Shown one piece after another: positions 6,715-53,547 of a stretch of DNA of 60,101 bases. How positions within the stretch are numbered: the first letter of the stretch is position 1; every line of letters begins with the position of its first letter. The stretch comes from a virus. Position numbers and translations under genes: made by a program. The notes below the pieces were generated by a model. It had not been told where the DNA came from. It made no database searches and saw only the letters and a program-made list of their open reading frames with translations. The stretch covers positions 1 through 60,101 of IMG/VR virus record IMGVR_UViG_3300044970_000208. One strand, 5' to 3'.

Positions 6715-7554
6715 ATGGCAAATCACGTCATCTTCTCCCGCAACATCGACAACTCTGCTCTGACACTTGAGCAGATTCAACACCGTGCTCCTGCTGCGTT
6801 CAGCACCACCAAGTCTGAGCGTTTGAGTGACCGTTATGTATCGCTCAATACCAGTGATGTGCTGCCCATCATGGCAGACTATGGCTACCTTCCAACACAG
6901 GCTGCACAAAAGCGTAGCCGTAAGGCCAGCACCGAGCATGCTGCCCACATGTTGGCATTCAGTCGTACCACTGACATCGTTGAAGCTGGTGACATTCGTC
7001 CCGAGATCATCTTGTACAACTCTCACGATGGCACAGGCTCAGTGAAGCTGTTTGCTGGTGCATTCCGTTTCATCTGTAGCAATGGCATCGTGGCAGGTGA
7101 TGGCTTTCAATCCCGCATCTACCACAGCAAAGCATTGACAGGCTTTGAAGAGATGTTGCGTAACACAGTGGCTACATTGCCTGATCTGATGGGCCGCATT
7201 GACAGGATGCGTGGTGTGTCGTTGTCTGTTGGTCAAGTACATGACATGGCAATTGCTGGTGTTGCTACCCGTTGGGACGACTACACAGGTCAACCCCGTG
7301 GTGCTTACGCTGTGTCACAGACAGTCAAGGATGTGATGAATGTTCGCCGTTATGGTGACGAAGGCTACGATGCATGGACTGTGTTCAACCGCATTCAGGA
7401 AGGTGTGATTCGTGGCAATGCGATGATTCGCTCCATCACTGAGACACATCCCGAAGGTGTGATGCGTAAGGCTCGACCAGTCAACTCCATCAAGGAAGCT
7501 GTGCGTATCAACACAGAACTGTGGAATATTGCTGACGAATTCGTTACTGCGTAA
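6715..7554 (+). CDS. DUF932-family protein, 279 aa
   Basis: MANHVIFSRNIDNSALTLEQ, then SERLSDRYVSLNTSDVLPIM, GTGSVKLFAGAFRFICSNGI and LSVGQVHDMAIAGVATRW. This is the usual architecture of DUF932, a domain common on phages and plasmids, often near replication or conjugation functions, with no established activity. Length fits the family. Start at ATG 6715 behind AAGGAAACACATC. It has its own promoter, so it may be needed at a higher level than its neighbours. Confidence 0.8.
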   Translation: MANHVIFSRNIDNSALTLEQIQHRAPAAFSTTKSERLSDRYVSLNTSDVLPIMADYGYLPTQAAQKRSRKASTEHAAHMLAFSRTTDIVEAGDIRPEIILYNSHDGTGSVKLFAGAFRFICSNGIVAGDGFQSRIYHSKALTGFEEMLRNTVATLPDLMGRIDRMRGVSLSVGQVHDMAIAGVATRWDDYTGQPRGAYAVSQTVKDVMNVRRYGDEGYDAWTVFNRIQEGVIRGNAMIRSITETHPEGVMRKARPVNSIKEAVRINTELWNIADEFVTA

Positions 7555-7652
7555 CGTCAATGGCCTTAACCGCTATGGGGATGCCACTGCGTGGCAGCAA
7601 TCGGTGACAGCATGGAGAGACATGCAACAACACAACAACATAGGAAATGTTA

Positions 7653-8474
7653 ATGAATCAAAACAACGCTATCGGTATGTTCATGGGTCTGTTCATCGGT
7701 GATGCACTCGGTGCGCCATTGGAATTCACTGAGCCTAACACTGGCTCCCCACTCAAGGACATGGTCGGTGGTGGTGTTCATGAGACAGCACCGGGAGAGT
7801 GGACAGACGATGGTGCTATGGCAATGGCTATTGCTGATGCCTACCTCAGCTACAAACGCTTTGCTCCCGGCATCATTGCACAGAACTTCAAACAGTGGAG
7901 AAACAATGGAACTTTCGGTACTCGATCTTATTGTTTTGATATTGGAACTACTACTGCTGAAGCGCTGAGTGCATCGTCCAACAAGCGTCCCTATGGTGGC
8001 TCTTGTGCCCTCATGACAGACGGTAACGGTGCGATCATGCGACTGGCTCCACACATACTGTTCAACCACAACAACAAGACGATGGCGATTGCTGAGTCTG
8101 TTGCTGGTGGCTTGCTCACTCACGGTACAGGTAAGTGTGTTGCCTATAGTGCTGCACTGGCTGAAGAGTTGTTCGATGGGTCTGCACCAAACAAAACCCT
8201 GTACGACAAAGGCATCAAGGAAGAGAGTGGCACAGTGATGGGCTGCTATGCATCGGCATGGCAGTCTGTTGCAGCTACATCGTCCTTTGAAGACGCTCTC
8301 ATCCACGCTGTCAACAAAGGTGGTGACGCTGATACTGTTGGTGCTGTGACAGGTATGATTGCTGGTCGCATCTATGGCTACGATGCCATCCCTCAACGAT
8401 GGATTGATGCACTGGTTGACCACGACAAGTTGTTGGCGACAGCAACTATGCTTTACAACATGGGTGATGTATGA
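7653..8474 (+). CDS. ADP-ribosylglycohydrolase, 273 aa
   Basis: ADP-ribosylglycohydrolase (DraG/ARH) fold: GLFIGDALGAPLEF at the N terminus, the metal-binding WTDDGAMAMAIADA (Thr51, Asp52, Asp53), and the C-terminal GGDADTVGAVTGMIAGRIYG (Asp225, Asp227, Thr228). All five expected metal ligands are present, so it should be active. Such enzymes remove ADP-ribose from proteins or small molecules, and in a phage could reverse host ADP-ribosylation defence or recycle NAD products. Start ATG 7653 chosen for its AGGAA spacing over ATG 7647. Confidence 0.9.
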   Translation: MNQNNAIGMFMGLFIGDALGAPLEFTEPNTGSPLKDMVGGGVHETAPGEWTDDGAMAMAIADAYLSYKRFAPGIIAQNFKQWRNNGTFGTRSYCFDIGTTTAEALSASSNKRPYGGSCALMTDGNGAIMRLAPHILFNHNNKTMAIAESVAGGLLTHGTGKCVAYSAALAEELFDGSAPNKTLYDKGIKEESGTVMGCYASAWQSVAATSSFEDALIHAVNKGGDADTVGAVTGMIAGRIYGYDAIPQRWIDALVDHDKLLATATMLYNMGDV

Positions 8475-26965: not shown

Positions 26966-29900
26966 TCACCGACGACTTGCTAGACCACCCTTTGCCAGCT
27001 TTGGTACAAACTTTCTCACCTCATCCAATGGCTTAGTTCGTTTAGCTTCATCAGTGGCTTTAGAAATTGCAGGCTCAGTCTGCTGAAACTTCTTCAGTTT
27101 GTCTGTAAGTTCATACAGGTTCTGTGCTTTCTGCTTGGCCCCGCCAGCATCTAAGATGTCAGCAACCTCACGCATCTGTCGTTGAATACCTGAATAGTCT
27201 GCAAAGTTGTTAATTGCAGCTTGGTATTGCTGACCAAGACCGGACTTTGTAGACGTTGCTGTAGCCATATCCAGATAGCTGTTCATCAAATCTTTGATAC
27301 CAGTGTATGACATGTATGCAAGCTTCATCTTTTCTTTAGGGTCTGGAGTGGTACGAGCAAGCTTCATATACTCAGCCACAACTTCTTCTTCACCCTTCAT
27401 CGTTGCCCTACTCAGACCTTTACCACCAGTCTCCAGCACCCGAGCAACATCCTTCTCACCACTACGCAACTTAGCATCTCTACCTTTGACACGAAGCTTC
27501 TCAGCTTCCAACATCATGTCTTCTGTTTCTAAGAAACCAGCACGAGGTAGACCAATCGGACGAACAACACCGGGTGCGCCAGTGACAGCGCGAAGGATTG
27601 TGTTCATGTCTTTCCTGTCATACTTCTCAGGAGCCATGTTGATTTTGTTGAACACATAATCAGCGTATGGAATCTCGGTGACAACATAGTTCTGTGGTTT
27701 TGTTCCACCAAACGGTGTACCTCTAAATCCAAGATTTAAGTCTTTAGTGAACGAAGGAGCACCCACCATCATTTCAGAATGGAAGAACTCATCACGCTTA
27801 GATGGGTCCGTAAAGCCTGACTTCTTCAACGTGTCCACGTCTTCAGTAACACCTTGACCGTGGAACAACTTAACAGGTGGCACATCCTTATACTTCTCAC
27901 GCAGTGTTTCAAGACGTTTCTGATATTGACCAGCCATCTTCATAACATCGGCAAGCATAGAGGGGTCTTTAGGATTGAGTTCAACACCACGAGAATATCG
28001 ATAGTCACCCAACACCACACCCAACACATCGTCATCTATTGACGAAAACTTATCGTTGTTACGGAGCTTAAAAAAGCTGTCTTCGCGTGTCTCTTTGATG
28101 GCAGCAACAGCTTTGTTACGCGCAACAACACTGACATTACCAGTGATGCTATTAACATCACCAGACAAATACTTAGGATCAACACCGTATTCATCAGCAA
28201 CCGGTTCAGCCTTTCTAACCACAGCCTTACCACCAACACTGACAGGATTACCGTCCATGTCATATTCAACTTCATCCACCAAAGACTCAGCAGACTCATC
28301 AGCCTTCTTAGCAAATGGCTGTGGTGGCATCTCAGAGAACTTCAACCCTTTAGCCTGACCAGTGAAGCTATGTAGAGTGTTGGCATAGTCTTCAGGGTTA
28401 GCTACCTTCCAACTCTTCAACTGAGCAGGTGTGTACAGGTCAAGCATCGCCTCTTCACCCATGATGTAGTCTTCGTCAGCAAAGGCTTTAGAAGGCGCAG
28501 GAGCCTCTATCGCCTGTGCTGGTGGGGTAGGCATGGCTTGTTCTGTTGGTGCTGCTGTAGGGGCTGTGATAGCCTTTGGTGCAGCTTTAGCAGAAGGTGT
28601 GATAGCCTTTGGTGCAGCTTTAGCAGAAGGTGTGATAGCCTTTGGTGCAGCTTTGGTTGGTGCAGGCTTCTTAGTCAGCATGTTTGCCATCTGATCCATC
28701 ACAGGTGACGGAGCTTCGACAGGTGCGCCAGCATCTTTCCTAACTTGTTGCAACAAATTCATTGTTTCATCAAGCAATGTAGACTTACCAGTCTTCTTCA
28801 ATGCTTCTTTGGCAACAACACCACCAGCAGCAAAACCGGGTTTGTCATCCTGTACAGCCAATGGTGCTCTCTGTACAGTTTTAGCCAACTGCAAAGCAAT
28901 ACCAAACTTACGGAAGTCTGTGTCCTCAGTTAAACTTCTACCAAGTTGTTGTTTATACAAATCAGTTGTAGCCTTACGAACCTTTGGAGGCAAAGCTTCA
29001 AACTTCTTCTGTTCAATTGGAGGAACTTGTTCACGACTATAGTAGTCCTGAATAGATTCCAGTGTTGCAATGTTCTTGGCTTGTGTCTGAAGTTGTGAAA
29101 GTCGATTCTTCAACTCACCAAACTGACCTTCTCTTGAAGCGTTCTTATATTCATCGCTGCGAAGATAGGGCAACAACATAGCTTCAATGTTTTCTGCCAT
29201 GAATTTACGAGCTTGAGAGTCAACAGTTTTATCACCAGTGGTTCTGAAGACAGACTGGTAAGGAATATTAAGACGTTCAATCTCAGTTTCGATTTCATTC
29301 TTTGGAGGAACCAAAGCCAAACCTGTCATCTGCTTGAATGGACCTGTGTCGCGTGGTGCAGCCTTTTCTCGTGTTGCTGGTTGGTACTCAGGCAACGCTT
29401 GCTTCAAGATGGGAATACCCTTCTGAATAGAGCGACCAATAATCTCACCAGCACCAAGCTTTTCACCGGGCTGAGTGACAAAGATGTCACGCTGCATTGC
29501 CTCGTCCCTGTCGAATGCGCTGATCAAATCACTGAATTGATTCAATGGGACAGTGGCGCGACCAAGCCATGCACCGATAAACTCAGCACCAGACTTGCTC
29601 ATCTTATTCAAAGCAGCTTCATCGGATTCATCGCCTGTGAAGTTGGCAGAAATAGACGATGCGGCTTCACGAGCCACATCAACCATCTGACCTTGTGTAC
29701 CTACAGCTTTGAAACCAGTCAGTGCTTCAACCAAGTCTTTGGTCTTGAAGTCTTCAGGATTACCGTTGATTGTTTTGTAATAGAAGTCTGCAAGCGCAAG
29801 AGGAACGTTCAAGGGAAACAAAAACTTAGCGTCAACGGTTGTGCCGTCATCGCTCTTCATAATGTTCCAAGGAGTGTCTTGGTTTTCTTCACGATATTTG

Positions 29901-32362
29901 TACGCAGCAATGAGTGTTGCAGCACCTGTGGCTTGCTGTGCAATACGAGTTGAACCCTGCATCAACAAAGCCTGCCCTGCCTCGTCACCATTACGAAGCA
30001 TGCTGACACCTCTAATCATGTCTGCTGCACCCATACCTGCGGTAAGGCCGGGGTTGTAATGTTTCCATGTCCACTTAGTGGCGTTGACAAGGAATCGTGC
30101 AAAAGGAAATACCACAGTGCTTACAGGTCGAGCAGCTTCAACGCCTTTAACAAACGCCAGTCCCAATCCTTCTGTGGGTGTCTTGCTGAATGTGAATTCA
30201 AGAGCATCGTCAACACCTTTACGCAAGATGTCGATGGGGATATTCTTACCCTGCGCCATTGTGTCCAGCATATCCAAACCAACTTGTCGCATGTGATAGT
30301 CAATCGACGAAGCAAACACAGCACGACGAATGTAGTTGTCCATCAACACAGCAGGTGTATTCAAGATACGCACAGGAGCAATCAAGTCAGTCTGCTTCAT
30401 CTCTTCAGCAGTCGCCAACATCTTGCTCATCAGCATTGGGTTGTTCTTCAGAGCTTCTTCAGTGATGTCCTTAGACAATTCTTGTTGACCGAGATAGAAC
30501 CATGTATCGACTGTGTCATCGATAGCGCCATGTATACCGCGACCAATGTCACCCTTAACAGGACTACCACGCATTTCACCAGCAAGCTTACGACCAGTGT
30601 TGAACAGCAAAGATTCAAGACCTTCTTCAACAGCACCGTATGTAGAGTTGACACCAACACCAAATGCGTTACGCATCACCGTAGCCATGTTGGTTGTCAT
30701 GGCTGTAATCATGTTGCGGTCAGCACGATCAATGTAACCTTTCAATGTTGCCAGTGCGCCAGTTGAGGGGTCTGGTTTACCCAACAAAGCGTCAACAGCT
30801 TTGGCTGATTCAGGGTCAACCTCTCGCATCTTATTGATCATGCGGCTGATGACAGACTTGCTTTGCAGAGTACGAGCAGCGTCACTGGTAGATACACCAT
30901 ACATTGCAGAAAACTTCTCAAGAGCGTCAGTGTCTAAGCCACCAGCTTCAAGACGTGTCAGGAAGTTTGGTAGGTCTGTGCCTGCATCCTCAAGCGATTG
31001 AGTAATGACGTTGTCAGGAAGACTGTCAAAGCTTTGCAGAGTACGTTGAACTGCTTCAAAGGTTTGCTCACCCGGTTTAGGTGACATGTCAGGAATCTGT
31101 TTCCAGATAGAAGCAGCAATCAAATCAGCTTGTTTGTCTAACGAGTTCTTCACCTGCATCTGTGCGATGGCAGTGGGAGCGCCTTGTTCATCAAGCAAGT
31201 CACCACCATCATAAATGTTAGTGGTTGTTACAGCTACGTTGTCTGCGTCCTTGTCACCAGTTAAAGTGTCAGGTTTCTTAGCGATGTCGAGTTGCTTCTT
31301 ACGAGCATCAAGAATCTCATTGAGAGTGAAGTCATTACCTTTGAGAAACTTGGTAGAGCCTTTAGCAGCCAGTGCTAATGGTCCCACTTCAACAGCCAAA
31401 CTCAGAGGCGCAGTGATTGCACCAGTCAATGCAGCTTCACCAATATCAATACCTTCAGCAACTTGCTTTTCAATCTGTTCAATCTGTGGCAGCACTTGTT
31501 GTTGTTGCTCTTCAGACAACTGAGGTAACAAAGTCCTCATCTCTTTAGCAGCAGCATCAGCAACAGACAACTCACGCTTCTGTCCATACACGTTGGACAA
31601 GACGTTGGTGGAGGTTTCTGTAGCCAGTGGAGCGCCAACACCGACAGCGCCTGTCTTAGACAACACAGCCTTCTTCAATCCTTCCTGTGTTGCTTTACGC
31701 ATCAAAGGACCAGTGACAACTTTACCAACACCGAGACTAGCCACCGTTGACGGAGCGCTAACAACACCAGCCATGTAGTCTGACACAGCCCTTAATGGGT
31801 TCTGACCACCCTTACTCAAGAAGCCAGCAGTCTTATCAAACAAAGCATAAGCTTCACCAGCCTTCAACACATCTGCTGGTTTGGAATTGTTGATCCAGTC
31901 TTGCTCAGTGAAGTAGTTGATTTCGTTGGTGTTGATGAATCGCATGTGACGAGCGAAACGATCAACATAAGCTGACGCAGATTCACCCGGTTTAGGTTGA
32001 CCAGTCTTACCGAAACGCAATGAAGCGTAGTCCTGAATCTTCTTCAAGTTCTCGGGATTGGTGTACAGTTGTTCAAACGGAATAGTTTCTGTCTTAGCAG
32101 CAGTCTTATCTGCTTCACGCTTTGTTTGCTGACGAGCCAGTGCAGCCTGAGAAGCCTCAAGAACATTGAAGCCTTGAGGCTGTGCAGGAGCAGGTGTTGG
32201 CGCAGCCTGTACAGTTGGTGCTTCCTGTTGAATAGGTTGTGAAGGTGGAATGGTCTGTGTGGGTTTAGGCAGCTTCTTCAAAGCCTCTGCCATTTGTTCC
32301 TTTGACATTCCGTCAGGAAACTCAACAGGACCAACACCAATAATGTCAACGATCTGAGCCAT
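26966..32362 (-). CDS. Giant internal virion/ejection protein, 1798 aa
   Basis: Largest gene and last of the leftward arm. N-terminal Pro/Gln-rich region, hydrophobic alanine-rich segments (about 190-340), a helical core with MTTNMATVMRNAFGVGVNST and FVKGVEAARPVSTVVFPFAR, a Pro/Ala linker with three AAPKAITPSAK-like repeats (33-bp DNA repeats at 28566-28655), and a C-terminal domain from about 1490 with LFHGQGVTEDVDTLKKSGFT...GAPSFTKDLNLGFRGTPFGG. This last part loosely resembles ADP-ribosyltransferases. Ends LAKGGLASRR. Size, position and composition suit a DNA-ejection protein carried in the capsid. Confidence 0.75.
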   Translation of the reverse strand: MAQIVDIIGVGPVEFPDGMSKEQMAEALKKLPKPTQTIPPSQPIQQEAPTVQAAPTPAPAQPQGFNVLEASQAALARQQTKREADKTAAKTETIPFEQLYTNPENLKKIQDYASLRFGKTGQPKPGESASAYVDRFARHMRFINTNEINYFTEQDWINNSKPADVLKAGEAYALFDKTAGFLSKGGQNPLRAVSDYMAGVVSAPSTVASLGVGKVVTGPLMRKATQEGLKKAVLSKTGAVGVGAPLATETSTNVLSNVYGQKRELSVADAAAKEMRTLLPQLSEEQQQQVLPQIEQIEKQVAEGIDIGEAALTGAITAPLSLAVEVGPLALAAKGSTKFLKGNDFTLNEILDARKKQLDIAKKPDTLTGDKDADNVAVTTTNIYDGGDLLDEQGAPTAIAQMQVKNSLDKQADLIAASIWKQIPDMSPKPGEQTFEAVQRTLQSFDSLPDNVITQSLEDAGTDLPNFLTRLEAGGLDTDALEKFSAMYGVSTSDAARTLQSKSVISRMINKMREVDPESAKAVDALLGKPDPSTGALATLKGYIDRADRNMITAMTTNMATVMRNAFGVGVNSTYGAVEEGLESLLFNTGRKLAGEMRGSPVKGDIGRGIHGAIDDTVDTWFYLGQQELSKDITEEALKNNPMLMSKMLATAEEMKQTDLIAPVRILNTPAVLMDNYIRRAVFASSIDYHMRQVGLDMLDTMAQGKNIPIDILRKGVDDALEFTFSKTPTEGLGLAFVKGVEAARPVSTVVFPFARFLVNATKWTWKHYNPGLTAGMGAADMIRGVSMLRNGDEAGQALLMQGSTRIAQQATGAATLIAAYKYREENQDTPWNIMKSDDGTTVDAKFLFPLNVPLALADFYYKTINGNPEDFKTKDLVEALTGFKAVGTQGQMVDVAREAASSISANFTGDESDEAALNKMSKSGAEFIGAWLGRATVPLNQFSDLISAFDRDEAMQRDIFVTQPGEKLGAGEIIGRSIQKGIPILKQALPEYQPATREKAAPRDTGPFKQMTGLALVPPKNEIETEIERLNIPYQSVFRTTGDKTVDSQARKFMAENIEAMLLPYLRSDEYKNASREGQFGELKNRLSQLQTQAKNIATLESIQDYYSREQVPPIEQKKFEALPPKVRKATTDLYKQQLGRSLTEDTDFRKFGIALQLAKTVQRAPLAVQDDKPGFAAGGVVAKEALKKTGKSTLLDETMNLLQQVRKDAGAPVEAPSPVMDQMANMLTKKPAPTKAAPKAITPSAKAAPKAITPSAKAAPKAITAPTAAPTEQAMPTPPAQAIEAPAPSKAFADEDYIMGEEAMLDLYTPAQLKSWKVANPEDYANTLHSFTGQAKGLKFSEMPPQPFAKKADESAESLVDEVEYDMDGNPVSVGGKAVVRKAEPVADEYGVDPKYLSGDVNSITGNVSVVARNKAVAAIKETREDSFFKLRNNDKFSSIDDDVLGVVLGDYRYSRGVELNPKDPSMLADVMKMAGQYQKRLETLREKYKDVPPVKLFHGQGVTEDVDTLKKSGFTDPSKRDEFFHSEMMVGAPSFTKDLNLGFRGTPFGGTKPQNYVVTEIPYADYVFNKINMAPEKYDRKDMNTILRAVTGAPGVVRPIGLPRAGFLETEDMMLEAEKLRVKGRDAKLRSGEKDVARVLETGGKGLSRATMKGEEEVVAEYMKLARTTPDPKEKMKLAYMSYTGIKDLMNSYLDMATATSTKSGLGQQYQAAINNFADYSGIQRQMREVADILDAGGAKQKAQNLYELTDKLKKFQQTEPAISKATDEAKRTKPLDEVRKFVPKLAKGGLASRR
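28566..28655. repeat. 33-bp tandem repeat, 2.7 copies
   Basis: Units begin at 28566, 28599 and 28632 (GTGATAGCCTTTGGTGCAGC...). The first two are nearly exact. They encode an Ala-Pro-Lys linker in the giant virion protein. Confidence 0.9.
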
Positions 32363-32365
32363 TAA

Positions 32366-33712
32366 TTATTCCCAAGAATTTGTATTAGGGTTCCATTTGA
32401 GTGCAGGCTTAGCGGCAACGGGTGGTGCAGCAGGCTTAGCAACAGGTGCGGTCCCACCACGAGGTGTTGCAATCGGAGCAGGTGCAGCAGCGGGTGTTGG
32501 TGTTGGTGTACCACCTCTACCAACTATTTCAGGCACAACAGGTTTAATTGCTTTACCAGCGTCATCGAACCTGATGCCAGCAGACATCATAGCGTTCTTA
32601 TGCATCTCGGAGCGAGGCGTTCCATCAGGCTTTGTCATCTCTTTAATGATGGCGTTAGCAGCAATGGCATCACCTCTGCGGAACAAATCACCTTGTGACA
32701 AGTCACGCAATGTCATTGTCACATTACCCTGTGCATCGGTGTTAGTGATGAGTTGACCCGGTGGAAGCTGTTGTTCAATTGTTGTGGCCCTTGTGCGAGT
32801 TGCAACCTGAATCAAGTTGGACTGTGAAATCTTATCAGCATCTGTCTTACCTTCAGAACCCGGTGCTTTCATCAAAGCTTGACGTTGACGCAACAAAGTT
32901 GTTGCTGTTGCAGCACCTTGCTTATCGCCAGCGGCTTGCTTCTGTTGAATCTCTGTAACCAAGTCAGATTGAATCTGTGATTCTGTTTTCTTTTCAACCT
33001 TACCAATTTCCTCAATGGTGTTGATACGGGCAAGTCTTTCGCTGGCAACGTTAACAGCTTTCGGGTCATTAGATTCTTTAGCATTTAGTAATTCAACTTG
33101 TGCTTGATCTTTAAGTTCTTTGAATCCTTTAGGTTCTTGCAACACACCCATGTCAAACGTAGCGCTACCAGTTGGTCGTGCAATTTTCTCGCTAGAGCGC
33201 AATTGCTCCAATGTCATACCCATACCACGGGCATACTTCTCCATATCCGTTTCCATCCGTTTCTTACCGATACCACGGAACAATGCACCAATAGGACTAC
33301 CAGTAGCTTCAGCGGGTTCAAGAGAAGCCTTAACCTTCTCTACGATTTCGGGCAAGATTGCGGCACGTTCAGCACCAAGCGCCTTAGATTCATTTCCCTT
33401 GATGACACGAATGTAGTTGTTTAAATCAACAGACGAAGGATTCTTTGTTTTCTTAATAGCTTCAAGCGCTACAGGATTGGCAAGCAACTCATTGACCTGT
33501 TCAGGTGTAGCGTTCTTCCACATTGTTTCAATGTATTGCTTCTCAACATTCATTTTGTTTGTAAGCTCACGATTGGCTTCAGCGTTTTCTTCATAACGCT
33601 TATACAAACCATTGAAGCTGGCTTTCGCCATCTGCTTAGCATCTTCTTCGGCCTGTTCAGCGCTGGTGACAAACTGTTTAGCAGCACCGCCAAAAAACGA
33701 CAATAAACTCAT
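32366..33712 (-). CDS. Internal virion protein, 448 aa
   Basis: MSLLSFFGGAAKQFVTSAEQ, then about 300 residues of charged helices (coiled-coil) and a Pro/Ala-rich C-terminal third ending KPALKWNPNTNSWE. Lies between the 166-aa and giant genes with 3-base spacing. Likely an internal core or ejection protein by context. Confidence 0.65.
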   Translation of the reverse strand: MSLLSFFGGAAKQFVTSAEQAEEDAKQMAKASFNGLYKRYEENAEANRELTNKMNVEKQYIETMWKNATPEQVNELLANPVALEAIKKTKNPSSVDLNNYIRVIKGNESKALGAERAAILPEIVEKVKASLEPAEATGSPIGALFRGIGKKRMETDMEKYARGMGMTLEQLRSSEKIARPTGSATFDMGVLQEPKGFKELKDQAQVELLNAKESNDPKAVNVASERLARINTIEEIGKVEKKTESQIQSDLVTEIQQKQAAGDKQGAATATTLLRQRQALMKAPGSEGKTDADKISQSNLIQVATRTRATTIEQQLPPGQLITNTDAQGNVTMTLRDLSQGDLFRRGDAIAANAIIKEMTKPDGTPRSEMHKNAMMSAGIRFDDAGKAIKPVVPEIVGRGGTPTPTPAAAPAPIATPRGGTAPVAKPAAPPVAAKPALKWNPNTNSWE

Positions 33713-34212
33713 TACATCACCTCTTTATTCTTACGCGCCATCAACCCTTTAGGCTGTGCCTCTTCCATCACAGGCTCAGCAGACTCAACAGGTTCTGACA
33801 CTTTCTTGGCAAACTCACGCAACACTCGTGGATGTACTGTTGTACCCTTCACCAAGTCTTCAGTGAACTTCACAGTCTTGATGTTGTTGAAGTCAGCAAT
33901 AGATTGCAACACTTCAATGATGACAGGCATAACCAAAATGCCAGCATCCAATGTGTGTCTACCTTTATGAACACCAGTGAGCATGAATGTCTCAGCAATG
34001 GTAGCCAAAGGAATCTCAGACTCCAACGCATCTAATATGTCATTAGCAGCTTCAGCTTGCCCAAGTGCATTGATGTAACTCTTAGCAACAGAAGAAACAT
34101 CTACAACTTTAGGTGCGTTCATCCAAGGACGACCCTTCGATGGAGCCGTCCAAGAGATGCCGGGTGGTGCGATGGAAATTACATCACCAACTTTGCTTTC
34201 ATTTTCGAGCAT
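33712..34212 (-). CDS. Virion-module protein, 166 aa
   Basis: MLENESKVGDVISIAPPGIS, then helical IALGQAEAANDILDALESEI-type sequence and a basic end (LMARKNKEVM). Start overlaps the end of the 71-aa gene; end overlaps the next start. Probably a minor structural or assembly factor; not recognised. Confidence 0.6.
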   Translation of the reverse strand: MLENESKVGDVISIAPPGISWTAPSKGRPWMNAPKVVDVSSVAKSYINALGQAEAANDILDALESEIPLATIAETFMLTGVHKGRHTLDAGILVMPVIIEVLQSIADFNNIKTVKFTEDLVKGTTVHPRVLREFAKKVSEPVESAEPVMEEAQPKGLMARKNKEVM

Positions 34213-34415: not shown

Positions 34416-36830
34416 TTAGTTCTCGTCGTCGTCAAACAAACCTACCAATGCACCCCAGACGTTGTCATTCTCCAGAAGCTTCAGTGCAGCAGCACCGAGA
34501 TTACCAGAAGCATTAGCAGAGGCTGTGGTCTTAGCGGCTTCAACACTAGAATTAGAAGTCAAAGTGGCTTTAGCAATTTCCGTCACCCTGTCCTTCTCAC
34601 TCTCACCAGTCTTCCAAGACATCTCTAACAAGTCTCGATAGGTCTGTGATACCTGAGCATAATTAGCAGCGGAAAGGTCTGTATAGTTTTTAGCATTAAC
34701 AGCATTAGCTGCGTTGATGGCAGCAGTGTTAGCAGTAGAAACATCAGCCAAGATTTTAGCATTGGCAACGTTAATCTGCGTAGTCATGTTAGCGTTAAAC
34801 TCTTGACGTTGATTAGCCGCCTGAGCATTGAACTTGGCAATCTCGTTACCCGCTGCCATGTTAGCGACAGAGATTTTGTTAGCTTCAGTGGCATTAAACT
34901 GATTAGCCGTAAGAGCCAGTGTAGCATTAACCTTTTCAACATCAATTGCATTTGTTGCATTTGTCAGCGAAGCAGCATTAGCAGCAGCAGCATCGGACAA
35001 AATGGATTGTGAAATTTGTTGACTCTTCACTACAGCCATTTGTTGCTGGTTGTCCAAGTTCTTCAAATCTGTAGCCAAGAAAGCCTGAGCATTCAACACA
35101 GCAGCCTGTTGACGATTGTTCAGATTGGTCATGTCCATCGAAGCAATGGTAGCTGCGTTGGCAATAGTTGTTTGCTGAGCAGCACTCAAGTTCGCAATAC
35201 CAATGTCCTTCATCAACTGTGAGTTATTCAGTGCGGCAGTTTGTGCAGCAGTGAATGTGGTGTTGAGGTTGTCCGAAATACGTGCAGCATTCAAGACAGC
35301 AGCTTGTTGCTTATTGTCCAATATCTTACCCTGACGAGCAGCTTCAATCTGAGCATTAGCCAAAGCCGCTTGCTGACGATTGGAAGCGTTGCTAATATCA
35401 ACTTGCACCTGCATAGAACTATTATGCAAAGCAGCTTGTTGTAAGTTATTCAGATTGATGTTTGCCATCTCAGCATAACGAGCAGCATTAACTACAGCAG
35501 CTTGTTGTTGGTTAGACAAATTCTGTCCCTGCAACGCAGCCCTAATCTGTGTATTAGCAAGCATTGTTTGTTGCATGTTAGACAGATTCTGGCTTTGAAG
35601 AGAAAACGAATTGGTAGCGTTAGTCAAACGAGCTTGTTGTTCGTTAGACAGATTTTGAAGTTGCAAACCCTGTTGAGCAGCAGCATTAGCCAATGACACC
35701 TGCTGACGGTTATTCAGATTCTGCATACCCATTTGCTGGAACACTTGAGCGTCCTGTGCAGCAATAGGTAAAGCGCTTTCCATAGCGGCTTGGAAGATGG
35801 CAGTAGCAGCCATAGAACTACCACCCAAACCACGAGAGGCCATAGCAGCATTAGCAGCGCGAATAGCACCAGCAGCCCAAGCAGGAGTAGCACCATCGTT
35901 GAAGCTCTTCATCAACTCTGTAAGCTGTCCTTGTACAGTGGATTGTGCATCAACATTACCCTGTGCAGCAGCAGCAAGAGTGCCGTCATCAACAGTGAAC
36001 TTATCAAGACGAGCAGCAACAACTGTAGCATCAGGTGCCAATCCTTCAGCAGTAATGGCTGTAGCCTGTGCCATATCTGCTTCAGCAATCTGTGCAGGTT
36101 TGACAAGTTCTTCAGCTTTCACAACACCTTGTGCTGCCTGTACAGCAGTAGGAGCAGCAGCTTGAGCAGCCTGTGCTGTTACAACAGGCATATCTGTTTG
36201 AGCAGTGACAAGTTCACCAGCCTCTGTAGTTCTAGTGCCAGCAACTACGGGAGCTACAAATTGACTACCTACTTGTTGTTGAGTAGCTAATGCTCCTTGA
36301 GAGACAGTGCCTTGTTGTGCAGTTACCTGTGCTTGTGGTGCAACAGTTCCTGTAGCAGCTTGTTGACCAGCTTGAGCAGCTTGGAGTTCTGCTGTAGTAT
36401 CTGTAGTTGTTGCGGTTGTTGTCTTGACAGGTGTGGGTGCAGCTACTTGGGTTGTAGTAGCCGCTGGTGCAGCAGCAGCCTGTGTAGCAGCACCAGCAGT
36501 TCCGGCTTGTGCAGTCATGCCGGGAGTAATATCGGTAGTGGCGGCTGTTACAACTGGTGCTGATGCGATGGTCGGAGTAACATTGGTTTCTGTTGTACCA
36601 CCAGCGAGTGCTGCAATTGGTGTAGTAGTAGTAACAACACCACCAGCTTGATAGTTCTTTACAAGCCCACCCTTCGCCATACGTGTAGCGAACTTGTCAG
36701 TGATAGCAGCATACTTCATACCCAATGCTGGTGAGCTATTGAGGAAGTCATCGAAGCCCTGCATAGGACCATCATAACCAAGCTTACGGGCTACGATTTC
36801 CTTTTGTTTTGCTGTAAAGTTTTCAGCCAT
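34416..36830 (-). CDS. Repeat-rich internal virion protein, 804 aa
   Basis: Residues about 53-66 contain MAKGGLVKNYQAGGVV. A long Ala/Thr/Gln low-complexity region follows. From about 373 to 640 there are twelve 22-residue repeats of the form NLNNRQQAALxNAxxxAxxxx; 22 residues equal two hendecads, predicting a long helical or coiled-coil rod. C-terminal helices end NDNVWGALVGLFDDDEN. Probably part of an ejection conduit or internal core. No homologue recognised with certainty. Confidence 0.7.
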   Translation of the reverse strand: MAENFTAKQKEIVARKLGYDGPMQGFDDFLNSSPALGMKYAAITDKFATRMAKGGLVKNYQAGGVVTTTTPIAALAGGTTETNVTPTIASAPVVTAATTDITPGMTAQAGTAGAATQAAAAPAATTTQVAAPTPVKTTTATTTDTTAELQAAQAGQQAATGTVAPQAQVTAQQGTVSQGALATQQQVGSQFVAPVVAGTRTTEAGELVTAQTDMPVVTAQAAQAAAPTAVQAAQGVVKAEELVKPAQIAEADMAQATAITAEGLAPDATVVAARLDKFTVDDGTLAAAAQGNVDAQSTVQGQLTELMKSFNDGATPAWAAGAIRAANAAMASRGLGGSSMAATAIFQAAMESALPIAAQDAQVFQQMGMQNLNNRQQVSLANAAAQQGLQLQNLSNEQQARLTNATNSFSLQSQNLSNMQQTMLANTQIRAALQGQNLSNQQQAAVVNAARYAEMANINLNNLQQAALHNSSMQVQVDISNASNRQQAALANAQIEAARQGKILDNKQQAAVLNAARISDNLNTTFTAAQTAALNNSQLMKDIGIANLSAAQQTTIANAATIASMDMTNLNNRQQAAVLNAQAFLATDLKNLDNQQQMAVVKSQQISQSILSDAAAANAASLTNATNAIDVEKVNATLALTANQFNATEANKISVANMAAGNEIAKFNAQAANQRQEFNANMTTQINVANAKILADVSTANTAAINAANAVNAKNYTDLSAANYAQVSQTYRDLLEMSWKTGESEKDRVTEIAKATLTSNSSVEAAKTTASANASGNLGAAALKLLENDNVWGALVGLFDDDEN

Positions 36831-51456: not shown

Positions 51457-52785
51457 TTATTTACGACGAGTTGCTAAGCCACCTTTAGCAAGCTGTGCTT
51501 TCTCACCAATAAACGGTGTGTACTTACCATCCGTGCCTTTACGCATAGCGAAGCCTTTGATGGGGGCATCTCTATAGATGTCACCATATTCAAAATTAAC
51601 AGGACGCCTTGAAGTACCAGAGGTAATTTCGTTTACAACAGCACCAGCACCAGCAAGACCAATCAATCTTCTTGCAAATTTCAAAGAATCTTTAGGATCA
51701 ATAGGAGCTTCATCAGGTACGTCTGAAGCAGGCTTGTTAATGAACGAATCAGGATCACCCAAGTCAGGAGCCGTTCCTGTTTTTGTAACACCAGATTCAG
51801 ACAACTCGCCTTCAGGTGTTTTCACTGTAATACCTTGACCACCACCCATATCAGTAATGTTGGGTGATGTTGGCATTTTTAAACCAAGACCATCGGTAAC
51901 ATTAAGACTGTAATCAACAGGGGATGTTCCGACTGTTGAACCAGCACCCGTAACAGGGTCAACTTTCAAACCATCAGTGGTCGGTAAAGTGACACCGCTT
52001 GTCAAAGAATAGTCAGGTTTAACATCAGCGCCTGCGCCAATTTTTGAAATGTCAAAAACATCGTCAGAAATTGCAGCACCACTACCCTGTGGTATTGCTT
52101 CATCAACAACCCTGTTCGTTATGCCACCGGGGTTTTTCTTATAGTCATCGATTGCTTTAGTAGCGTAGCTGATTGCATCGTTAATGATTGATGTAGTGAC
52201 AGCAGAACCTACGTCACCTTTACTAATCTGTGCAACCACTGCGGTATTCACTGCATTCTTTGCAACGTCTGGTAATTCGTTGAAGCCGGGAATGTCCTGA
52301 GTAATCAAAGAAACACCAGCACTAGCGCCTCCCAAAACAAAAGCAGCAAGTGGGTCTTTACCTAACAAAGCTGCTGTAGTTCCTTGAGTAACTGCTTTAG
52401 TCACAACAGTATTCAGTGTTCCTGTAATATTGCTGTTAGTCAATGTCTGACCAATTGCTTCAGCACCAACATTACCCACAAGAGGCAGGGCCGCACCAAT
52501 TACAGCAGACTTAACATCACCACCATTCAGTGTAGTGTTAATTAGTGTTTGACCAACCACCTGTGCCGCTACACCAGTTAGTCCAAGTTGAGCACCTAAC
52601 GCAGCGCCAGCACCGGGAAAAGTTACAGCAAGAGCAACAGCGGCAAGCTTTTTAGGGTCTTCGACAATTGCTTCAACAGTGTTCTTTACAGGTTGAAAAA
52701 TTTCGTCGTCAATTTTACGACCAGCACTTTCTATAACTCTGACAGGATTGAGTTCAACACCTAAGTTTTTTCTTGCCCACCCCAT
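51457..52785 (-). CDS. Membrane-active internal virion protein, 442 aa
   Basis: N-terminal amphipathic region (NLGVELNPVRVIESAGRKID), then a long Ala/Gly/Val hydrophobic part (about 45-185) with LAAVALAVTFPGAGAALGAQ, and a disordered C-terminal half ending LAKGGLATRRK. A membrane-penetrating ejection protein is plausible. The C terminus matches that of the giant virion protein. Confidence 0.6.
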   Translation of the reverse strand: MGWARKNLGVELNPVRVIESAGRKIDDEIFQPVKNTVEAIVEDPKKLAAVALAVTFPGAGAALGAQLGLTGVAAQVVGQTLINTTLNGGDVKSAVIGAALPLVGNVGAEAIGQTLTNSNITGTLNTVVTKAVTQGTTAALLGKDPLAAFVLGGASAGVSLITQDIPGFNELPDVAKNAVNTAVVAQISKGDVGSAVTTSIINDAISYATKAIDDYKKNPGGITNRVVDEAIPQGSGAAISDDVFDISKIGAGADVKPDYSLTSGVTLPTTDGLKVDPVTGAGSTVGTSPVDYSLNVTDGLGLKMPTSPNITDMGGGQGITVKTPEGELSESGVTKTGTAPDLGDPDSFINKPASDVPDEAPIDPKDSLKFARRLIGLAGAGAVVNEITSGTSRRPVNFEYGDIYRDAPIKGFAMRKGTDGKYTPFIGEKAQLAKGGLATRRK

Positions 52786-53163: not shown

Positions 53164-53547
53164 TTAGTCTTCCTCATTCATGATGGAGTCAATCTCATTT
53201 GAGAAAGCTTCATCATCCATTTCGTCTTCTTCACCGCCATGCATAGCGTCAGCGTCTTCCACTTCGTCAGCATTACCCATCTGACCAATCTCTTCCATGC
53301 GCTTCAAACCAGCTTTAGCTTTGTCACGCAGCTTCATCAACGTAGCCAAACCAATGTAACGAACCACATCAGCAGGGAAGACAAACTCGCCCTCGCTCAG
53401 CTTAGCGTCAATGTCGTCCCTCACTTCTTCTTGCAAAGAACCGGGAGGCACTTCATTGCCAGAAACTGGATCGACTGTGCCACCTTCTTGCATGACACCG
53501 CCTTCAGCAAACATAGTATTCATTTGATCAGCCAGCATTGATTTCAT
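53164..53547 (-). CDS. Acidic structural-module protein, 127 aa
   Basis: MKSMLADQMNTMFAEGGVMQ, GTVDPVSGNEVPPGSLQEEV, RDDIDAKLSEGEFVFPADVV, RYIGLATLMKLRDKAKAGLK, then a very acidic tail. The LSEGEFVxPADVVRYxGL pattern is widespread beside portal genes in environmental podoviruses. Possibly a portal chaperone. Confidence 0.75.
   Translation of the reverse strand: MKSMLADQMNTMFAEGGVMQEGGTVDPVSGNEVPPGSLQEEVRDDIDAKLSEGEFVFPADVVRYIGLATLMKLRDKAKAGLKRMEEIGQMGNADEVEDADAMHGGEEDEMDDEAFSNEIDSIMNEED

Follow-up and report, generated by a model that had tools for sequence, protein, structure and literature searches.

A hendecad-built repeat-rod protein next to the presumed ejection genes of an HMO-2011-like podophage: a candidate envelope-crossing conduit

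What use might a short-tailed phage make of a long, regularly repeated protein encoded just ahead of its presumed genome-ejection genes, and from what unit is such a protein built? The window analysed here, which spans the whole of an IMG/VR virus record (60,101 bases), raises this question through an 804-aa protein, named REP in this work, that is encoded on the minus strand at 34416-36830. The earlier note on this DNA had the coordinates and frame of this ATG-initiated ORF right, and described in it twelve 22-residue repeats that might form an ejection tube or a length-setting rod. Other recognisable products of the window are terminase, portal, coat, adaptor, a tail protein at the place of P22 gp10, ribonucleotide reductase and DNA polymerase; holin and endolysin are followed by REP and then by three genes designated g2, g3 and g4. 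The closest annotated relatives of REP belong to Manatee Spring podovirus (75% identity), Roseobacter phage CRP-1 and Puniceispirillum phage HMO-2011, and on these grounds the window is assigned to an HMO-2011-like short-tailed phage; the coat of HMO-2011 is annotated as P22-type. HMO-2011-type phages are described as a dominant and broadly distributed marine viral group (PMC9038755).

As judged from its sequence, REP consists of a conserved helical head, a rod of about 34 hendecads and a conserved end motif, preceded by a terminal domain and a linker and followed by a variable tail (Table 1). Identity at lag 22 is 0.288 over residues 331-720, as against a mean of 0.147 and a maximum of at most 0.191 for the best lag (5-59) in 1000 shuffled sequences. 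The layout in 22s does run from residue 371, close to where it had been placed, and eleven units are recognisable up to residue 612; the twelfth (613-634) is degenerate and devoid of QQ, and unit 8 reads TFTAAQTAALNN, departing from the QQ/N pattern, so that the QQ and N positions once called invariant are strongly conserved only. Nor does the repeat stop near residue 640: it goes on in 11-residue units, with 'FNA' every 11, to about residue 733, and the conserved C-terminal motif YRD...W...ESEKDR starts where the rod stops (about residue 731-733). Gly and Pro together make up 1.4% of the rod and Ala 22%. A tandem array at the DNA level was looked for in the REP gene and none was found, the best DNA identity between unit pairs being 65%. 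Units within the window share a mean protein identity of 36%, as against 77-91% for orthologous units in relatives, which indicates that they are old rather than recent copies. No convincing membrane segment was found in REP, its best 19-residue window (KD 1.25) lying in the head; a membrane anchor in the C-terminal tail was considered and dropped, a tail window above KD 1.0 being present in only 29 of 80 sequences.

Table 1. Parts of REP and the three genes that follow it (positions in the window)
Feature	Position	Strand	Remarks
REP, repeat-rod protein, whole ORF from ATG to stop, 804 aa	34416..36830	-	homologues in 26 annotated phage records and 122 IMG/VR stretches
N-terminal domain, residues 1-66, FTxKQKEIVARKxGYDGPMQxFDxF...RMAKGGxV	36633..36830	-	common to a large subset of homologues
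Linker, residues 67-287, Ala/Thr/Gln/Val-rich	35970..36632	-	length and sequence differ strongly among homologues
Helical head, residues 288-370, TVQGQL..TPAWAAGA.RAA..AMA.RGLG.SSMA....AAMESALPIA	35721..35969	-	highest conservation within REP
Eleven 22-residue units of two hendecads each, residues 371-612, consensus NLSNxQQAALxNAQxxAQLDLA	34995..35720	-	
Degenerate twelfth unit, residues 613-634	34929..34994	-	
Rod continuing as single 11-residue units, FNA/ANA every 11, residues 635-733	34632..34928	-	
C-terminal motif YRDLLEMSWKTGESEKDR, residues 731-748	34587..34640	-	conserved, ends the rod; three-residue overlap with the rod end
C-terminal tail, residues 749-804	34419..34586	-	variable, weakly hydrophobic; no clear membrane segment
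g2, 166 aa, hydrophobic stretch at residues 88-106	33712..34212	-	conserved in about 77 loci
g3, 448 aa, helical	32366..33712	-	T7 gp15/P22 gp20 place and size range, an analogy of order only
g4, 1798 aa, hydrophobic segments near residues 198 and 315	26966..32362	-	T7/P22 gp16 place, IVP-D-like by order only

The nature of the unit emerged from the relatives. REP relatives are encoded by 122 IMG/VR contig stretches, from which 80 loci were kept and joined to three annotated phages, giving 83 homologues. When these and the window protein were scanned with a 22-mer profile, the repeats were spaced by 22 (743 cases), 33 (123), 35 (50), 44 (14), 66 (7) and 55 (4), with about 16 others; the spacing of 35 corresponds to one fixed N-terminal junction at the head. 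Since this profile had been trained on 22-mers, rod length was also measured independently of it from end anchors, that is, from the Pro of the head ('ALPIA') to the Asp of the C-terminal 'RD' motif, leaving out three sequences that end at a contig end and one with a different tail. The 80 rods measure 257 (5), 268 (43), 378 (25, the window included), 455, 466 (3), 576 and 598 residues, with a single one of 269. Rod length is therefore 4 modulo 11 in 79 of the 80, across seven length classes whose agreement by chance would have a probability of about 11^-6. Likewise, 60% of pairwise gaps in rod and junction are multiples of 11, as against 7% in head and C-terminal end and 3.5% in the linker. 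The hendecad is therefore the fundamental unit of REP, the 22-residue period arising because alternate hendecads differ, and among relatives the rod changes only in whole hendecads. The hendecad reading of the earlier note is strongly supported by this quantisation, and the irregular repeats in homologues that it had said would speak against it were not found. So strict a modulo-11 rule records, with unusual clarity for a natural series, selection acting on helix register.

HMO-2011 gp25 (ADW08438) and its relatives in CRP phages, pelagiphages, phiM6, CHOED and MQM1 are homologous to REP by tblastn over head, rod and C-terminal end and keep the same lattice; they differ from the window protein in falling into other rod length classes and are annotated as hypothetical only. 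The sole off-lattice homologue (L071, 269 residues) has one 22-mer spacing of 23, attributable to a single-residue insertion or a sequencing error. The homologue at L027 carries a different tail with no recognisable RD motif, and the GenBank name 'huntingtin' of the Manatee Spring homologue (UOF80717; L083:7992-10583) is evidently spurious.

Pooled repeat columns placed on a hendecad wheel (98.2 degrees per residue) revealed two hydrophobic stripes about 165 degrees apart, one made of positions 8/19, 11/22 and 15(4) and the other of 10/21, 13/2 and 17(6), with N4 and Q6 lying within them in one of the two hendecads. The broad face between the stripes (N1/N12, 5/16, 9/20) is polar or charged, and the narrow face (3/14, 7/18) carries Ser, Asn and Gln. 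The Asn ladder at positions 1/12 and a narrow Gln/Ser/Asn stripe do exist, as the earlier note had noticed; lining of a channel, the role it offered for them, would be a possible one. The rod has hardly any signal at the single-face harmonic (11/3) or the heptad, heptad (3.5-residue) power being about 0.3-1.1 compared with 10-19 for the strongest 11-residue harmonics, and these harmonics rule out a simple amphipathic coiled coil with one face. The strongest hydrophobicity period is 11/4, for which no helical face alone accounts, and which we read as the mark of N4 and Q6 inside the seams. Two-seam helices typically build barrels or multi-helix sheets instead of simple dimers or trimers, and the pattern on the wheel favours a putative multi-helix barrel over a simple coil. 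An AlphaFold monomer of residues 288-804, built with 44 sequences, contains helix only and no strands, at low confidence (pLDDT 60, pTM 0.27), the 11-mer zone being drawn as a single 91-residue helix (residues 628-718); no globular fold, the other outcome that would have spoken against the earlier reading, is predicted. Poor prediction as a monomer is expected if REP is an obligate oligomer, as we take it to be. A Foldseek search of BFVD with this model returned three significant matches, seemingly unnamed relatives of the REP family.

Searches of Pfam and PHROG with REP and its family gave no usable family, so the earlier designation as 'internal virion protein' finds no backing in homology and has gene order as its basis. 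The PDB sequence search also gave nothing usable, matches to KMP-11 at E 0.2-0.3 being taken as chance. The gene order itself is well kept: in most loci with enough downstream sequence REP is followed by proteins of about 150-300, about 320-650 and more than 1000 aa, sometimes with a further ORF added, and profiles seeded from the window match g2 in 77 loci, g3 in 43 and g4 in 59. The best conserved neighbour is g2, which is met in marine, rhizobial, Vibrio and Aeromonas phages and has no Pfam or PHROG family. This small-middle-large series downstream of tail genes resembles the syntenic late cassettes of T7 (gp14-gp15-gp16; 196, 747 and 1318 aa) and P22 (gp7-gp20-gp16; 229, 471 and 609 aa), REP standing just before the series as an extra, fourth protein. 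It is also comparable, by description, in order and sizes to the ejectosome of DEV (Schitoviridae), with gp73 of 17.7 kDa, gp72 of 521 aa and gp71 of 3,398 aa, where gp72:gp73 form a tube of about 300 A (PMC10925440) and no REP-like component is described. By hhalign REP has no homology to T7 gp14/15/16 or P22 gp7/20/16 (at most 1.4%), HMMER likewise linked it to no known ejection protein, and no convincing REP-type repeat array was found in these proteins; a link to T7 gp14/P22 gp7 seen by eye (Gly-Ser-Ser motifs, Asn/Gln-rich helices) failed the same comparison. The g3 model is of moderate confidence and had no significant Foldseek match in the PDB, and its analogy to gp15/gp20 is a tentative one. 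The window g4 (26966-32362, minus) exceeds its complete relatives (about 1070-1250 aa) by several hundred residues, its extra C-terminal part giving no family match. Order and sizes suggest that g2-g3-g4 could be an ejection set with REP as an additional member, but the homology searches brought no support for it; this HMO-2011-type cassette carries no database annotation.

A structural parallel for the rod comes from outside the tailed phages. phiX174 H delivers DNA across the envelope and contains the hendecads QKELTKMQLDN, QKEIAEMQNET and QKEIAGIQSAT followed by heptads, with N, Q or R at 18 of its 23 inward positions (PMC7354561). Like REP, this decameric alpha-helical tube (Microviridae VP2/H; PDB 4JPP) has a hendecad coiled coil with a Gln/Asn-rich stripe, and the mean helix and strand propensities of the REP rod are like those of the H tube. 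The two differ in that H has 3 hendecads and then 11 heptads (121 residues, 170 A) whereas REP runs to about 24-54 hendecads without any detectable heptad, and in that H belongs to tailless ssDNA phages and REP to dsDNA podophages. When the H hendecads were slid on the REP profile, the best fit had position 1 of H at REP position 7, with the runner-up 11 away; this best register brings H Gln 1 and Gln 8 onto REP 7/18 and 14/3, on the narrow face and Gln on Gln, a modest match (p = 0.0045 against shuffling, 0.055 against column permutation). No homology was detected between them by hhalign (probability at most 1.5%), by PHROG 1471, which none of 44 homologues matched, or by HMMER and PDB sequence searches. 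H has membrane segments at both ends, and these are not evident in REP. The hendecad helical rod of H has its counterpart in the 79 of 80 REP lengths congruent modulo 11, together with a helix predicted at low confidence; the likeness is one of shared design rather than membership, with an amide-lined lumen in REP suggested by the helical wheel.

Our leading, still tentative proposal, to which we give somewhat less than an even chance, is that REP is the fourth component of the HMO-2011-type genome-ejection cassette and forms an envelope-crossing conduit like the H tube. The rod of each chain would be one continuous helix, nearly straight or right-handed, and chains would pack side by side through the two seams into a barrel or tube instead of a two- or three-stranded coil, with the narrow Gln/Ser/Asn face turned inwards and the broader Asn/charged face outwards. 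REP would be packaged with the genome, leave through the portal and re-form as a conduit through the cell envelope. Literature searches returned no virion proteomics and no study on DNA passage through the envelope for HMO-2011-type phages. If REP does form a hendecad tube lined with amides, tailed dsDNA phages would have a counterpart of their own to the phiX174 principle, perhaps a convergent one. Against a tube counts that straight rods of 57-90 nm rival the capsid in size; MQM1, a distant relative, has a head of 70.6 nm and a tail of 9.2 nm (PMC10410586).

Straight rods, with a length close to or above the capsid width, would need some folding-back inside the head, and it is on this point that another arrangement deserves weight: REP might be a packaged internal protein kept folded back, as a helical bundle or portal ring like DEV gp72 before ejection, that organises DNA or holds ejection proteins without being a conduit. 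Two-seam helices fit multi-helix bundles as well, and g2-g3-g4 are already sized like a complete ejection set. We nevertheless consider this unlikely, because strict register over up to 54 hendecads exceeds the needs of bundles with turns, and because turns would tolerate other indel sizes, which are less frequent in the rod. Gene position would suit another role, in which REP plugs the tail with a long trimeric coiled coil as its needle or central fibre: the P22 needle gene lies between gp10 and the ejection genes as REP lies between tail/lysis and presumed ejection genes, nothing else encoded in the window was recognised as a possible needle, and gp26, like REP, is a long helical rod. P22 gp26 is a heptad trimer, whereas REP has almost no heptad signal and two seams per helix instead of one; REP shows no similarity to gp26 (no homology by hhalign), and a needle of 40-90 nm would be conspicuous on relatives described as plain short-tailed phages, all of which makes a needle quite improbable.

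The AlphaFold monomer itself could be taken to favour an alpha-solenoid of stacked helix-turn units, each with a 16-residue helix, an L-S-x-x-Q capping box and a short turn, for it draws the 22-mer zone as helices of 16-18 residues with breaks of 4-6 residues at xNLSN, and position 3 prefers S/N/T/D, which are typical helix N-caps. This zone has a confidence of 40-75, the rod runs on into the 11-residue zone drawn as one long helix, and loops should take odd indels, whereas spacings stay on multiples of 11, 33 and 55 included; the scarcity of off-lattice indels is thus evidence against real turns in the 22-mer zone, and we hold such a solenoid to be very unlikely. An amyloid- or curli-like beta-solenoid with 22-residue coils, suggested by a likeness to curli repeats in repeat length and N/Q ladders and by a hydrophobicity peak at 2.2 residues readable as strand alternation, is scarcely credible for a rod with no predicted strands, almost no Gly or Pro, 22% Ala, a helix propensity above that for strand, and 33-residue spacings that are awkward for a 22-residue coil.

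How long, then, is the rod meant to be? The length of about 40 nm given by the earlier note holds for twelve units at 1.5 A per residue; the whole rod of the window has 378 residues and would reach about 57 nm. Since rods range from 257 to 598 residues, a universal ruler, the sense of its length-setting rod, is unlikely. Two main length alleles stand out, one of 268 residues (about 40 nm) and one of 378 (about 57 nm), and their distribution was followed on trees in which most of the few sequences of class 257 were merged into class 268. On the g2 tree the 268 and 378 classes interleave, with at least 10-12 changes, 10-11 of them forced by well-supported branches. In the trees built from the REP head and from the first 100 rod residues, the 268 class splits off with a single change (support 98/99 and 99/94) and the 378 class likewise with one change at weaker support (84/73 and 35/0). 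The classes interleave again on the tree of the last 110 rod residues plus the C-terminal motif (9 changes, 6 forced) and, weakly, on that of the N-terminal 62 residues. The simplest reading of this conflict would be that head and proximal rod behave as a cassette with two standing length alleles, swapped between lineages by recombination inside the rod, of which only in-register recombinants survive. Unit-by-unit exchange together with the two standing alleles would let rod length shift without breaking helix register.

Taken with the proposed conduit, it is tempting to speculate that a dsDNA podophage builds its conduit from a single protein whose chains each contain 24-54 hendecads, an alpha-helical DNA tube that greatly exceeds phiX174 H in length, and that discrete length alleles (268, 378) are traded between lineages as head-plus-proximal-rod cassettes by register-keeping recombination; we regard this combined statement as doubtful, if attractive. 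With natural length alleles spanning 257 to 598 residues, the control of conduit length would then become directly testable. As for the earlier note, the feature is real and its class was well guessed, its observation being confirmed and its interpretation supported in part; what is chiefly added to it here is a modulo-11 rule that holds across some 80 homologues, a pair of length alleles that look exchangeable, the pattern of two seams on each helix and the parallel with phiX174 H.

Some minor observations concern short peptides and gene borders. A 442-aa protein encoded between the portal and coat genes (51457-52785, minus) ends in ...QLAKGGLATRRK and g4 in ...KLAKGGLASRR, a near-identical C-terminal peptide in otherwise unrelated proteins that is possibly a procapsid docking signal. 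Portal-adjacent proteins (53164-53547, minus; also L091, L092 and L093) have motifs of the FAEGGVMQEGG type, similar to the MAKGGLVKNYQAGGVV stretch of REP. Short 'AxGG[LVM]' motifs are common to REP, g4 and the proteins encoded beside the portal, and might be docking peptides for the procapsid, a lead only. In some relatives an ORF of about 470-490 aa begins on the same strand within the 3' end of the REP gene (L054:5053-6924 and 6794-8257; L076:4927-6978 and 6812-8227), so that the two genes share up to about 130-170 bases, unless the start is misplaced.
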